39,927 nt of DNA from Pseudomonadota bacterium (GTDB lineage Bacteria > Pseudomonadota > Gammaproteobacteria > Burkholderiales > Burkholderiaceae_C): positions 1 to 39,927 of the forward strand of contig JAUNUR010000024.1 in assembly GCA_030538085.1 (NCBI GenBank), given 5' to 3'. Under the pieces are notes generated by a model that was not told where the DNA came from, searched no databases, and saw only the letters and a list, made by a program, of their open reading frames with translations. Below, piece by piece: positions 21,164 to 26,090 of the stretch. Made by a program: the position numbers and the translations under genes. Every line of letters starts with the position of its first letter. Position 1 is the stretch's first letter.

Positions 21164-21742
21164 GTGCCGGGCTTGAGCGAAGCGGATTTTCTGGCGCTGG
21201 TGCGCCGCAACGCCGCCAACGCGGCCTTGCTCGAACGGCTGCCCGCGCTGGCCCTGCCCGATGCCTACCTGGCCGCGGGCTGCCTGTTTCAGGCGGTGTG
21301 GAACCAGCGCGGCGGTCGGGCGCCGGACTGGGGCGTGCGCGATTACGACGTGTTCTATTTCGATCCGGGCGATTTGTCAGCCGATGCCGAAGCGCGGATC
21401 GAGGCCCGTGTGCGGCAAATCACCGCCGACTTGGGCGTGACGGTGGAGGTCAAGAACCAGGCGCGCGTTCACACCTGGTACCGCGACTGGTTTGGCGCCG
21501 ACTACCCGCCGCTGCGCTGCACGCGCGAAGGCATCGAGCGTTTTCTGGTCGCCTGCACCTGTGTCGGCATCCGGCTGGGCGATGGCGCGCTGCATGCGCC
21601 CGGTGGCCTGGACGACTTGTGGCGCGGCGTGCTGCGCATCAACCCGCGCCACGCGATGCCAGCGCTTTTCAGCGCCAAGGCGCTGAGCTACCAGCGCCGC
21701 TGGCCGTGGCTGACGGTGGTCGAGCCAGCGGCCGTGGCTTGA
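21164..21742 (+). CDS. Nucleotidyltransferase-like protein inserted between ccmB and ccmC
   Basis: The 192-aa protein belongs to the COG3575-type (DUF925) nucleotidyltransferase-like family. It has LPDAYLAAGCLFQAVWNQR followed by GVRDYDVFYFD, the D-Y-D motif expected for metal binding. VHTWYRDWFG and the R.EGIERFLVACTCVGIR segment match the family. The start is GTG at 21164, 4 bp after ccmB. Its biochemical role is unknown. It lies within a canonical ccm operon with no long gaps, so it is probably co-expressed. Confidence 0.8.
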   Translation: MPGLSEADFLALVRRNAANAALLERLPALALPDAYLAAGCLFQAVWNQRGGRAPDWGVRDYDVFYFDPGDLSADAEARIEARVRQITADLGVTVEVKNQARVHTWYRDWFGADYPPLRCTREGIERFLVACTCVGIRLGDGALHAPGGLDDLWRGVLRINPRHAMPALFSAKALSYQRRWPWLTVVEPAAVA

Positions 21743-21804: not shown

Positions 21805-22593
21805 ATGGCTTCGCAGCCCACCTTGTTTCACTTCGCCGCCCCCAAGCGCCTGCACGTGCTGGCCGGGCGCTGGGTACAGCCCTGCCTGTGGCTGGCGGCC
21901 GCGATGGCGTTGCCGGGCCTGTGGCTGGCGCTGGTGGTCACGCCGGCCGACGCGGTGCAGGGCGAGGGCTACCGCATCCTGTACGTGCACGTACCGGCGG
22001 CGTGGATGTCGATGTGGATCTACGCCGTCATGGCGTTCTGGAGCTTCGTCGGCCTGGTCTGGCGCACGCGCGCCTCGCACCTGATGGCGCATGCGCTGGC
22101 GCCCACGGGCGCGGTGTTCGCGCTGCTGTCGCTGGTGACCGGCGCGCTGTGGGGCAAGCCCATGTGGGGCACCTGGTGGGTGTGGGATGCGCGCCTCACC
22201 ACCTCGCTCTTGCTGCTGTTCATCTACCTGGGTTATCTGGCGCTGCTGCGCGCGCACGAGGGCCGCGCCAGCGCCGACAGGCCCTGCGCCGTGCTGGGGC
22301 TGCTGGGGGCGTTGAACCTGCCGGTGATCTATTTCTCCGTCCACTGGTGGAACACGCTGCACCAGGGCGCCAGCATCACGCCGTCGGGCGCCAGCATGCC
22401 TGGCGCCACGCTGACGGGCCTGCTGCTGATGGCGGGCGCGGCCTGGATGTGGACTTTCGCCACGTCGTTCAGGCGCGTGCAACTGTTGATCGAGGAGCGC
22501 GAAGCGCACACCCGCTGGCTGCGCAGCTTGCGACGGGACACCGACGATGCGGTCGCCGATGGCGCGCCACCCGCAAGGCTTGGAGAGGTTTGA
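21805..22593 (+). CDS. ccmC: Heme handling protein CcmC
   Basis: The 262-aa membrane protein has six segments and the periplasmic tryptophan-rich motif WGTWWVWDARLTTS, which binds heme for transfer to CcmE. Conserved heme-ligand histidines appear in YVHVPAAWMSM and FSVHWWNTLHQG. The length is slightly above E. coli CcmC. The 62-bp gap before it is one of the larger ones in the operon. Confidence 0.96.
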   Translation: MASQPTLFHFAAPKRLHVLAGRWVQPCLWLAAAMALPGLWLALVVTPADAVQGEGYRILYVHVPAAWMSMWIYAVMAFWSFVGLVWRTRASHLMAHALAPTGAVFALLSLVTGALWGKPMWGTWWVWDARLTTSLLLLFIYLGYLALLRAHEGRASADRPCAVLGLLGALNLPVIYFSVHWWNTLHQGASITPSGASMPGATLTGLLLMAGAAWMWTFATSFRRVQLLIEEREAHTRWLRSLRRDTDDAVADGAPPARLGEV

Positions 22594-22597
22594 AGTC

Positions 22598-22795
22598 ATG
22601 AGTTTCCTGACCCCTTGGTGGAACGATCTGGGTGCCTTTGTGCAGATGGGCAAGCATGGCGCTTATGTTTGGCCCGCCTTCGGCGTGTGCGCGCTGGCAT
22701 TGGCGCTGGAATGGGCCGGCCTGCGCCGGCAGGCGCGCCGCTTGCGGGGCCAGGCGCCCGCCGTGCCGCCATTGGCCGCTGGAGAAGCCGAATGA
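22598..22795 (+). CDS. ccmD: CcmD
   Basis: The 65-aa small membrane protein has the CcmD pattern: FVQMGKHGAYVWPAFGVCAL with a single membrane segment and a basic cytoplasmic tail (RRQARRLRGQ). It stabilises the CcmABC complex and helps release holo-CcmE. The start at 22598 has GGAGAGG upstream, 4 bp after the ccmC stop. It overlaps ccmE by ATGA. Confidence 0.93.
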   Translation: MSFLTPWWNDLGAFVQMGKHGAYVWPAFGVCALALALEWAGLRRQARRLRGQAPAVPPLAAGEAE

Positions 22796-23259
22796 GCACC
22801 GCCTTGCATTCCCCGCCCGCGGGTACGCCCTGGACGCCGCGCCGCAAGCGGCTGCTGTTCATCAGTGCCGCCGTGCTGCTGGCCGGCATCGCGCTGGCGC
22901 TGGTGCTGCGCGCTTTCAACGACAACCTGGTGTTCTTCCTCACGCCCACGCAGGTGGCGCAGGGTCAGGCCAAGGGCAAGGACAGCGTGCGCATCGGCGG
23001 GATGGTGCAGGCCGGCTCCATCCAGCGTGGCGTGGGCGTGGGGCATGATCTGGAAGTGCGCTTCGTGCTGACCGACGTGGCGCACACCGTGCCCGTGGTG
23101 TATCGCGGTGTGCTGCCCGATCTGTTCGTCGAGGGCAAGGGCGCCGTGGCGCAGGGGCGCCTGGACGCACAGGGCCAGCTTGTCGCCAGCGAAGTGCTGG
23201 CCAAGCATGACGAGAACTACGTGGCGCCGGGGGTGGAGTTGCACCCTGCTGGCAAATGA
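22792..23259 (+). CDS. ccmE: Periplasmic heme chaperone CcmE
   Basis: The 155-aa protein has an N-terminal membrane anchor (LLFISAAVLLAGIALALVL) and an OB-fold periplasmic domain. The heme-binding motif is LAKHDENYVAP, whose histidine binds heme covalently. The last residues (GVELHPAGK) are short. It overlaps ccmD, and its stop overlaps the next ORF by one base. ccmF would be expected next but is displaced by an unrelated gene. Confidence 0.96.
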   Translation: MSTALHSPPAGTPWTPRRKRLLFISAAVLLAGIALALVLRAFNDNLVFFLTPTQVAQGQAKGKDSVRIGGMVQAGSIQRGVGVGHDLEVRFVLTDVAHTVPVVYRGVLPDLFVEGKGAVAQGRLDAQGQLVASEVLAKHDENYVAPGVELHPAGK

Positions 23260-23958
23260 ATGGATCAAATGACAACTCCGTTTGATTCGGTGCTCGACAA
23301 AGAGGGGGGCACGGTGGTTCCAGAGGCGATTCGAAGCCACTGGGCTTTGGAAGCTCCTCAAGCGCTGCGCTGGACGCTGAATCCGACAGGCACGGTTTGC
23401 GTCGAGCCTCTGAAAGACCGCAAGCTACGCGACTCTTTGCCGTCGCGGATGAAGAGCCAATGGCAAGTCGCGACTGCCGCTGAGGCTTTTGCGGCGGCGC
23501 AGTTCTCCCGCTGCGGTTGGGACGTGTCGGTTCAATACGGCGCGAATCAGCCGGAGTACGATCTGGTGGCTGTCGATGGAGACCGGATGCTCAAGGTGTC
23601 AGTCAAAGGCAGCAAGGATGGCAGCTGGGGGCTCACTCAGTCCCATCTGAAGAACGCTGATTACTACGCTGCTATAGACGCTTGGCTCAGTAAGCACTCC
23701 AAAAAAACGCTCTTCTGCTTGGTGCAATTCAAAAAAGTTGCTGCTTTCGAGTTGCCTCGGTTGTACTTGGCAACCCCAAGCGAGATCGCTGCGCAGTTGC
23801 GCGCCACATGCAAGGGGCGGGGCGATACGATCCTGTACGAGCACCACGCATGGACAAGCCGCGCACGCGGAGCAGGAACGATTGAAGCGATCCCGCCACA
23901 TTGGGCGTTTACCGACGAACGGTTGGAGCAACTGGCAGCCGAGTTGGCGCAAGGCTAG
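23260..23958 (+). CDS. AbrB-like domain fused to PD-(D/E)XK-like domain, between ccmE and ccmF
   Basis: The 232-aa protein is not a ccm component. Residues 8-50 (VLDKEGGTVVPEAIRSHWAL, ending CVEP) resemble the swapped-hairpin fold of AbrB/SpoVT/MazE-type DNA-binding antitoxins. Residues 73-118 resemble a PD-(D/E)XK nuclease core: a helix with E75, then D101 (YDLVAVDG) and K116 in KVSVKGS. The residue two before the lysine is Ser, where an acidic residue or Gln is normal, so activity is uncertain. VQFKK and LYLATPSEIAAQLR (about 155-181) fit the last strand and helix seen in related proteins. Base composition looks less GC-rich than its neighbours, which suggests recent acquisition. Both domain calls are by eye. 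Confidence 0.6.
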   Translation: MDQMTTPFDSVLDKEGGTVVPEAIRSHWALEAPQALRWTLNPTGTVCVEPLKDRKLRDSLPSRMKSQWQVATAAEAFAAAQFSRCGWDVSVQYGANQPEYDLVAVDGDRMLKVSVKGSKDGSWGLTQSHLKNADYYAAIDAWLSKHSKKTLFCLVQFKKVAAFELPRLYLATPSEIAAQLRATCKGRGDTILYEHHAWTSRARGAGTIEAIPPHWAFTDERLEQLAAELAQG

Positions 23959-23966
23959 TACGACCC

Positions 23967-26090
23967 ATGCTTCCCGAACTCGCCCACCTCCTGCTGATCC
24001 TCGCCCTGCTCGCCGCGGCGGCCCAGTCATGGGCGGGGCTGGCGCCACGCGCGCTGCCGCGCCTGGCCCGCGTGGCGCTGGCGTGGCAACTGGGCGGCAT
24101 CGCGGTGGCGTTCGGGCTGCTGGGGGCGGCGTTCGTGCAGGACGATTTCTCGGTGATGTACGTGGTGCAGCACGGCCACACCGACTTGCCGCTGCTGTAC
24201 AAGATTTCCGCCATCTGGGGCGGGCACGAGGGCTCGCTGCTGCTGTGGGTGCTGATCCTGGCGGGCTGGTCGGCGCTGGCGGCGTGGTGGCTGGAAATGG
24301 CTAGCGCGGGCACTCATGCCCGCGCAGCGGCTGACGGCATGGCACGCGGGCATGAATGCCCGCCCCGCGAACCGGGAAGCGATTACGTCGCCCGCGTGCT
24401 CGGTTTTCTTGGCCTGGTGTCGCTGGCGATGCTGGCTTTCATCCTGCTCACCTCCAATCCCTTCACACGCCTGCTGCCGGCGATGGACGAAGGGCAAAGC
24501 CTGAACCCGCTGCTGCAAGACCCGGGCCTGGCGCTGCACCCGCCGCTGCTGTACCTGGGCTACGTGGGCACGGCGGTGCCGTTCGCCATGGTGATGGCGG
24601 TGCTGGCTTATGCCGGCGCGCCAGCGGCATGGGTGCGGCTGATGCGGCCCTTCGTGCTGCTGGCCTGGGCCTTCCTGTCGGTGGGCATCGCGCTCGGTTC
24701 GTGGTGGGCGTATTACGAACTGGGCTGGGGCGGCTGGTGGTTCTGGGACCCGGTGGAAAACGCCTCGTTCATGCCCTGGCTGGTGCTGGCCGCGCTGGCG
24801 CACACGCTGGCGGTGCGCGAAGGGCGGCGCGCGCTGCCGCACTGGACGGCGGTGCTGGCCATTGGTGCCTTCATGCTGTCGCTGCTGGGGCTGTTTCTGG
24901 TGCGCTCGGGCGTCATCACCTCGGTGCACGCGTTCGCCACCGATCCGCGGCGCGGCGTGTTCCTGCTGGGCTTGATCGCCGGTTTTCTGCTGGGCGCGAT
25001 GGGCCTGTACGCCCGCCATGCCGAGCGCTTGCAAGACGCGCGCGGTCCGCTGCCCACGGCGCTGGCCTCGCGCGAGACGGCGGTGCTGCTCAACAACCTG
25101 CTGCTGCTGGTGGCCTGCGCCACGGTGCTGCTGGGCACGCTGTACCCGCTGGCGATGGACGCGCTGGGGCTGGGGCAGCTCAGCGTTGGCCCGCCGTATT
25201 TCGAGGCGGTGCTGGCGCCGGTGTTTCTGCTGCTGCTGGCGTTGCTGGTTCCGGCGGCGTGGCTGCGCTGGGGCGCGGGGGTGGGAAGTGATGCGCGGCG
25301 GTACATCGCACGCTGGTCGATGGCCAGCGTGGCCCTGGTGTTCGGCATGGCGGTGCTGCTGAAGCTCGAATTCGGCGCCTATCGCTGGCCGACCGCGCTG
25401 ACCATGGGGTTGTCGCTGCTGGTCGTGGTGGCCACGCTGCGTTGGGCCGTGCGCCAGTGGCGCAAGGGTGGCCTTGCCGCGCAGCGGAGCTTCGGGGTGC
25501 GTCGCCTGACCGCGTCGCAGTGGGGCATGGTCGTGGCCCACCTGGGCGTGGCGGTGTTCGCCATCGGCGTGGCCATGGTGGGCGGTTACGGCGTGGAGCG
25601 CGACGTGCGCCTGCAGCCGGGCGATACGCACGCGCTGGCGGATTGCCAACTGCGCTTTGACCAAGTGCAGCCGCACCGCGGCCCCAACTACATGGGGCTG
25701 GCCGGGCATTTCACGCTGCAATGCCCTGAGCAGGCGCCGCGCGCCATGGTGGCTGAAAAACGCAACTACGTCGGCAGCAGCATGCCCATGACGGAGAGCG
25801 CCATCCGCTGGGGCCTGACGCGCGACCTGTACGTGGCCATGGGCGAGCCGCTGGGCGCGTCGCCTTATGGCGCCTGGAGCGTGCGCGTGCAATACAAGCC
25901 CTTCATGCGCTGGGTCTGGTTCGGCGTGGTGCTGATGGCGCTGGGCGCCGGCATCGCGGCGGCATCGCGGCGCTACCGGGCGGTGCGGGAGCGCGCGCGG
26001 GCGGGCGTGCCCGCGACGCTTGCTCCGTCCGCGCCGCTGGTTCCCGCGGTGGGCGAGCACGCTCGTACGACGCAGGCGCGCGAGGGTTGA
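23967..26090 (+). CDS. ccmF: Heme lyase CcmF
   Basis: The 707-aa protein has many membrane segments. The heme-binding WWD motif WGGWWFWDPVENASFMPW lies in the first half. IWGGHEGSLLLWVLIL and DPGLALHPPLLYLGYVG hold conserved histidines, and LVRSGVITSVHAFATDP follows. It attaches heme to apocytochromes with CcmH. A loop of about 25 residues (ASAGTHARAAADGMARGHEC, continuing PPRE) is encoded by a BIME-like palindrome and is absent from what I recall of CcmF. A basic tail follows the last segment. The start at 23967 is preferred to an upstream in-frame codon at 23901. Confidence 0.95.
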   Translation: MLPELAHLLLILALLAAAAQSWAGLAPRALPRLARVALAWQLGGIAVAFGLLGAAFVQDDFSVMYVVQHGHTDLPLLYKISAIWGGHEGSLLLWVLILAGWSALAAWWLEMASAGTHARAAADGMARGHECPPREPGSDYVARVLGFLGLVSLAMLAFILLTSNPFTRLLPAMDEGQSLNPLLQDPGLALHPPLLYLGYVGTAVPFAMVMAVLAYAGAPAAWVRLMRPFVLLAWAFLSVGIALGSWWAYYELGWGGWWFWDPVENASFMPWLVLAALAHTLAVREGRRALPHWTAVLAIGAFMLSLLGLFLVRSGVITSVHAFATDPRRGVFLLGLIAGFLLGAMGLYARHAERLQDARGPLPTALASRETAVLLNNLLLLVACATVLLGTLYPLAMDALGLGQLSVGPPYFEAVLAPVFLLLLALLVPAAWLRWGAGVGSDARRYIARWSMASVALVFGMAVLLKLEFGAYRWPTALTMGLSLLVVVATLRWAVRQWRKGGLAAQRSFGVRRLTASQWGMVVAHLGVAVFAIGVAMVGGYGVERDVRLQPGDTHALADCQLRFDQVQPHRGPNYMGLAGHFTLQCPEQAPRAMVAEKRNYVGSSMPMTESAIRWGLTRDLYVAMGEPLGASPYGAWSVRVQYKPFMRWVWFGVVLMALGAGIAAASRRYRAVRERARAGVPATLAPSAPLVPAVGEHARTTQAREG
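24304..24363. repeat. BIME-like palindrome pair within ccmF
   Basis: GCGCGGGCA-CTCA-TGCCCGCGC (24304-24325) and GCGGGCAT-GA-ATGCCCGC (24346-24363) are near-identical inverted copies of each other (one mismatch over 19 bases) and each is palindromic. They are in frame in ccmF and code for a hydrophilic loop. The frame and length (multiple of three) are preserved. Confidence 0.7.

Follow-up and report, generated by a model that had tools for sequence, protein, structure and literature searches.

A gene of 232 codons lies between ccmE and ccmF in the window, the whole 39,927-nucleotide stretch of contig JAUNUR010000024.1 that was analyzed. The locus raises the question of what this gene encodes and how it came to stand there. 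Judged from its sequence, it may be a defence-type nuclease that was captured at a toxin-antitoxin cassette site and joined to a relic antitoxin head, a reading to which we give a probability of about 0.5. The features concerned are the following.

22792..23259, + strand: ccmE, the upstream flank
23260..23958, + strand: fused gene P0001, 232 aa, between ccmE and ccmF, recognized by its open reading frame and foreign composition
23284..23424, + strand: AbrB/PrlF-type half-domain, residues 9-55, with a degenerate DNA-contact loop and without the toxin-binding tail
23449..23955, + strand: PD-(D/E)XK-like nuclease part, residues 64-232, matched by whole stand-alone genes
23482..23484, + strand: codon of E75, conserved in the core alignment
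23560..23562, + strand: codon of D101, conserved in the core alignment
23599..23607, + strand: codons of S114-V115-K116, the third motif with Ser in the acidic place, conserved in the core alignment
23967..26090, + strand: ccmF, the downstream flank

Gene position and composition

The fused gene opens with an ATG at 23260, the base after the ccmE stop codon (TGA, 23257-23259), and closes with a TAG at 23956-23958, 8 bp before the ccmF ATG at 23967. An earlier note on this DNA had given the same coordinates, length and spacing, and the reading of the open reading frames reproduced them exactly. Its remark that the gene is less GC-rich than its neighbours was borne out gene by gene: GC was 0.582 for the fused gene and 0.684-0.735 for the ccm genes; GC3 was 0.665, compared with 0.81-0.92 for those ccm genes that were read in frame. 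Rows for ccmD were left out here and in the reading of the congeners' operons, its query being out of frame. GC as low or lower was found in 11 of 785 sliding 699-bp segments, those over the fused gene itself included. The head (0.587) and the nuclease part (0.580) were alike in GC. A chance open reading frame was ruled out by homology and by the coding GC3.

A promoter scan of 22500-24500 found none, which says little because shuffles expect only 0.1; one terminator-like site was found in the same interval against 2.0 expected by shuffles, again of little weight. Terminator, Rfam and repeat scans of the fused gene gave nothing of note, and there was no Rfam match in 22700-24300. From its position the gene would be read from the ccm transcript, and on the same ground the suggestion of a defence or selfish gene on that transcript is plausible.

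The N-terminal half

An HMM built from seven AbrB antitoxins gave residues 9-55 a score of 31 bits, whereas 2000 shuffles reached no more than 9.0 bits; the match to the AbrB/MazE/PrlF superfamily is thus beyond chance. With the model of the antitoxin subfamily found in AbrB+PIN pairs, residues 9-58 gave 30.2 bits (E 1.6e-11, one-sequence search). Pfam PrlF gave 11.7 bits (E 0.29) and missed its cut-off of 32 bits, so that the AbrB/MazE-type resemblance proposed earlier holds at profile level and below the curated cut-off. The core residues G, T, VP and IR were kept, and the 63 codons of the head were open and in frame with the nuclease part. By these profiles and residues the head is a diverged AbrB domain.

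One loop of the AbrB/MazE/PrlF superfamily serves DNA contact. In place of the basic (K/R)-G-(Q/R)-T-T of 36 related antitoxins the head has E-G-G-T-V, and its 45-residue core carries a net charge of -3, where the same 36 relatives range from +1 to +4. A head that binds DNA well is unlikely on these residues, and the idea of a working DNA-binding head is not supported. The antitoxin's toxin-binding tail was also absent; in MazE and like AbrB-type antitoxins the C-terminal part binds the toxin (PMC4803016, the part of the paper that was available).

A single-gene toxin-antitoxin system, in which the fused nuclease is restrained by the AbrB half or autoregulated through it and the ccm operon serves only as landing site, has two-gene pairs at the same junction in congeners in its favour. 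Fused antitoxin-toxin genes are known as well, PrlF-YhaV and YefM-YoeB being given in the available part of PMC11980606, and they share with the window gene an antitoxin-type DNA-binding domain N-terminal to an enzyme in one gene. They differ in that the window enzyme is PD-(D/E)XK-like and not a BECR-fold toxin, and in that the antitoxin tail is missing here. The missing tail and the degenerate loop both speak against such a system, and a conventional type II pair was not found either, the fused gene filling the whole gap (open reading frames overlapping it were unprofiled). A search of 10,638 six-frame fragments from 93 loci of nuclease relatives, with models made from this antitoxin type and with some loci being one contig fetched twice, gave no AbrB at E <= 0.5; the nuclease therefore seems not to need such an antitoxin. 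A separate AbrB scan of viral contigs gave 3 loci. We regard a single-gene toxin-antitoxin system as unlikely.

The AbrB-nuclease fusion was unique in the material searched, namely the 80 best contig relatives out of 140 together with the genomes sampled, and no account of an AbrB-PD-(D/E)XK fusion was found in the accessible parts of open-licence PMC papers. The architecture had been called unusual, a DNA-binding antitoxin-like head joined to a nuclease-like domain; both halves were recovered and the AbrB fusion was unique as searched, but the head is unlikely to be the working DNA binder that the description implied.

The nuclease part and its family

Pfam PDDEXK_5 (PF11645) matched the window protein with 21.6 bits (E 2.4e-4), below its gathering cut-off of 26.1 bits, and matched 50 of 72 family members at E <= 1e-3; one NCBIfam model of the YraN-like group matched up to 18 of the 72. 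The family alignment (A2) had 72 rows after five near-duplicates were dropped. Searched against PDB sequences, its profile found the UPF0102 protein 3fov as the best match (E 0.003), and the single window sequence found nothing below E 0.08. No PDDEXK_5 or YraN-type match extended past about residue 160, and the C-terminal region beyond it has no named family. Nothing beyond these weak matches came from Pfam and NCBIfam scans of the family or from a PADLOC scan of the window protein, in which the PADLOC 2.0 anti-phage defence profiles gave 0 families at E <= 10.

Residues E75, Q92, D101, S114, V115 and K116 were identical in all 79 aligned cores, with the conservation of E75 less independent because this residue was in the pattern that selected the cores. 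That pattern missed two loci, L110, in which the E is present, and L083, in which the frame read lacks it. The catalytic residues expected of a PD-(D/E)XK enzyme (E75, D101, K116) are thus conserved, with S114 at the third acidic place, and the proposal of a PD-(D/E)XK-like centre holds at profile level, below curated cut-offs. The serine that had been singled out is present as described and is the rule of the family, not a defect, being found in every core. Like the PDDEXK_5 and UPF0102 YraN-like nucleases, the window protein has an E in its first part, a D and then x-V-K, and the core profile matches; it differs in scoring below cut-off, in having S-V-K for an acidic third motif, and in its AbrB head. 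From this pattern the family is PD-(D/E)XK-like and, as a rule, has Ser where an acidic residue is usual, and residues 64-232 would have nuclease activity.

Relatives of the nuclease and the breakpoint

Relatives matched residues 64-232 at 51-75% identity and left the head out. A contig scan returned 161 stretches with 140 relatives, the best 80 of which were kept. By record title these came from Proteobacteria, Clostridia, Cyanobacteria, Acidobacteria, Spirochaetes, Chloroflexi, Verrucomicrobia and others; many were MAGs with unchecked binning. Among these best 80 of 140 the nuclease was mostly stand-alone and spread across many bacterial phyla. In the family-level search 9 of 399 genomes matched at E <= 1e-3, including the window's own and two weak partial ones; the order-level search gave 2 of 399 and a set of 60 relatives gave three, the window's own genome counted each time. 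Within the genus, the other 28 genomes, a set with several incomplete ones, gave no match to the fused gene. Phage and plasmid collections held no match to the window gene at E <= 1e-3; in the viral scans two contigs matched, the same two in both.

DNA homology to the relatives (blastn) opened at 23437-23461 in the best matches, at the ATG at 23449 in three cases and at 23448 in three, and none of 88 matches started upstream of 23437. The breakpoint lies near Met64, which is the ATG of the stand-alone relatives. Ahead of the equivalent of Met64 there were at most 10 open residues in 47 of 76 cores, 11-55 in 25 and more in 4; this set of 76 leaves out L071, L093 and L121, which have in-frame stops, and the pattern misses L083 and L110.

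The shortness of this open frame in most relatives would suit a nuclease that starts at its own Met64 behind a decaying, functionless remnant of an antitoxin, and the head is indeed very diverged and charge-reversed in its key loop. Against such a start, the 63-codon head has stayed open and in frame with its AbrB core residues kept, and no clear ribosome-binding site was seen by eye before Met64. We think it improbable that the head is a remnant of this kind.

The view that the nuclease family is always stand-alone was rejected. In one of the 4 cores with more than 55 open residues, that of Paenibacillus thalictri (L117:5200-6492), the nuclease part lies behind DUF6946 in a protein of 431 aa (PF22187 at 32-229). 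That gene resembles the window gene in having another domain in front of a nuclease part of the same family and differs from it in the head, DUF6946 in one and AbrB in the other. The window is therefore not alone in having a fusion, but in the material searched it alone had an AbrB head.

A selfish endonuclease standing on its own and spreading through cuts at intergenic sites, much as homing enzymes do, would explain a mostly lone nuclease at these identities in many phyla and the decay of some copies, 3 of the 80 having an early in-frame stop (L071, L093, L121). PDDEXK_5 presumably includes an intron-encoded enzyme. The available part of PMC3943268 names PD-(D/E)xK as one homing endonuclease family. 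Such spread is hard to reconcile with neighbours that differ between loci, with no relative having been found at ccmE-ccmF and no Rfam match at the site, and with the clostridial hsdR-nuclease-hsdM order described below, which argues for a role; neither an association with introns nor an occupied site in relatives was found. A homing-like element is, in our judgement, quite improbable.

The ccmE-ccmF junction

Among 29 genomes of the genus, ccmE was present in 12 and ccmF in 13, and a single contig spanned a readable junction in 11, these being the window and 10 congeners. Four congeners (G008, G010, G015, G023) carried an AbrB+PIN pair in 683-696 bp, with PIN above the Pfam cut-off in all four. 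The junction of G014 (714 bp) held a Gp49-type toxin gene and a second small gene, and that of G022 (L022) a 516-bp insert with a 156-aa open reading frame that had no Pfam match at E <= 0.01. Three were empty (G007, G009, G018). Cassette content at this junction thus varied across congeners, and from this variation we propose that it is a cassette site of the genus, often with a toxin-antitoxin pair. A small insert of 236 bp in G001 (L027:1932-2170) has 24-nt inverted ends that are 88% complementary and looks MITE-type.

Outside the genus the best 30 ccmF loci of 120 matched genomes were taken, of which 28 were from other genera and three had no ccmE in the locus; all 25 readable junctions were empty, with gaps of -4 to +15, some of the starts being extrapolated. 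No other copy of the fused gene was found at ccmE-ccmF in the 10 congeners or these 25 loci. The earlier note had taken the gene to be unrelated to ccm, and this view gained from its not being kept at the junctions read. A ccm function, for example help in cytochrome c assembly, has in its favour the position inside the operon; against it stand the 25 empty junctions, the lack of a match in the other 28 genus genomes, several of these incomplete, and the nuclease and AbrB profiles. It was rejected on distribution and is very improbable indeed.

A tree of ccmC, ccmE and ccmF placed the window with G014, G010, G023, G008 and G007 on weak support, with G022 and G015 next. An AbrB+PIN cassette in the common ancestor of the window's group is plausible from this placement.

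The ccm genes had also been described as a tight run, which is not uniform: a nucleotidyltransferase gene at 21164-21742 on the + strand (PF06042, E 6e-44) stands between ccmB and ccmC and leaves a gap of 62 bp before the latter. Since this gene too is lodged there, the ccm operon takes up more than one passenger. Matches to the PF06042 gene covered nearly its full length in G010 and G014 and a remnant in G008, and G023 gave none. In G014 (L145) about 1.4 kb separates the ccmC match from the ccmE match, a wider interval than in the congeners read, which suggests another passenger near ccmD.

Descent of the head

The AbrB+PIN (VapB-type/VapC) pairs are alike to the fused gene in that the head matches their antitoxin subfamily and that four congeners have them at the same junction; the fused gene differs in lacking the toxin-binding tail and the PIN toxin and in its acidic loop. 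An AbrB set was collected from the 29 genomes of the genus with two Pfam families at E <= 0.01, giving 114 loci after removal of four duplicates. Compared with the window head, the four junction AbrBs ranked 1-4 of the 114 (19.1, 18.2, 16.5 and 16.1 bits; the fifth 10.4), although their orthologue-like nature makes them worth little more than a single draw in this ranking. They alone were strongly of the subfamily, at 113.7-119 bits against 55.6 for the next, with a model that includes them.

Antitoxins of the subfamily type were found in 164 of 399 family genomes at E <= 1e-6. In a comparison that added three AbrBs from the order and 29 subfamily members from other genera, the ranks of the junction copies were only 9, 10, 12 and 18 of 36, and the three from the order scored as well or better (22 to 18.3 bits against 18.0 to 15.2). 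Because the subfamily is common and the junction copies rank low among the 36, the head need not descend from a local copy. A tree of AbrB cores gave the head no settled placement, with a window branch length of 2.8. The resident vapB genes have a GC of 0.65-0.66 against 0.587 for the head; the head matches the nuclease part in GC and not vapB, which fits a fusion that arrived ready-made. The head appears to be the right type of antitoxin at the right site, and local descent is possible.

The course of events on the favoured reading of a captured nuclease with a relic antitoxin head would be as follows. At a junction that in this genus serves as a cassette site, often for a toxin-antitoxin pair, an AbrB antitoxin of the subfamily seen in the four congeners would have contributed its N-terminal dimerisation half, which came to run in frame into a horizontally acquired, mostly stand-alone PD-(D/E)XK gene, so that the nuclease took the place of the antitoxin's toxin-binding tail and of the PIN toxin. 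The ccm transcript would supply the protein, which would dimerise through its AbrB half, and the nuclease part would cut DNA as a restriction-like or defence effector. The nuclease activity, the dimerisation, the defence role, the co-transcription and an origin of the fusion at this very site are the conjectural steps of this course. If it is correct, the locus is a concrete and testable example of how an antitoxin module, at one fixed place on the chromosome, can turn into the head of a different enzyme, and sister species may still carry the precursor cassette.

Relatives in clostridial hsd loci

In 18 of the best 80 of 140 relatives, all Clostridia by title, the nuclease gene lay between hsdR-like and hsdM-like genes on the same strand (L076, L077, L080, L090, L092, L105, L106, L108, L118, L122-L126, L130, L131, L135, L137). 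Fifteen of these were found by a strict tblastn test; in L080, L118 and L130 the upstream hsdR ends inside the nuclease match. The flanks of L080 carried ResIII, EcoEI_R_C and HSDR_N (HsdR) on one side and N6_Mtase and HsdM_N (HsdM) on the other. Close spacing was frequent in these loci, and the 18 copies sat in a clade of 26 with a support of 0.92. The clostridial genes are related to the window nuclease part at 51-63% identity; the window gene differs in having no adjoining hsd genes, and the clostridial genes in having no detected AbrB head. In the accessible parts of open-licence PMC papers no description of a nuclease between hsdR and hsdM was found, and none that links PDDEXK_5 to type I restriction.

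From this gene order the clostridial copies are possibly an unnamed accessory of type I restriction, and the window gene points to a conserved nuclease family inside clostridial type I restriction operons. A bolder form of the favoured reading would have the cassette site change its enzyme and an antitoxin without toxin and tail gain a defence-type nuclease, the outcome being a new architecture in one gene, with the antitoxin's dimerisation half, without DNA specificity, driving or controlling a PD-(D/E)XK effector whose family is an undescribed type I restriction accessory that also travels alone. We offer this form tentatively and hold it to be doubtful as a whole.

Outside the hsd loci the neighbours varied by locus, with single methylase, restriction and TIR-type PADLOC matches. 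An enrichment of defence genes next to the nuclease was considered and dropped; in a test of 105 of 107 near proteins and 73 of 77 far ones, PADLOC matches outside the hsd loci were scattered at ±1 and ±4 alike. On a phage contig (L004:4004-4549) the nuclease lies between methylase-like and ATPase-like open reading frames with tail-like genes around, the names being given by eye.
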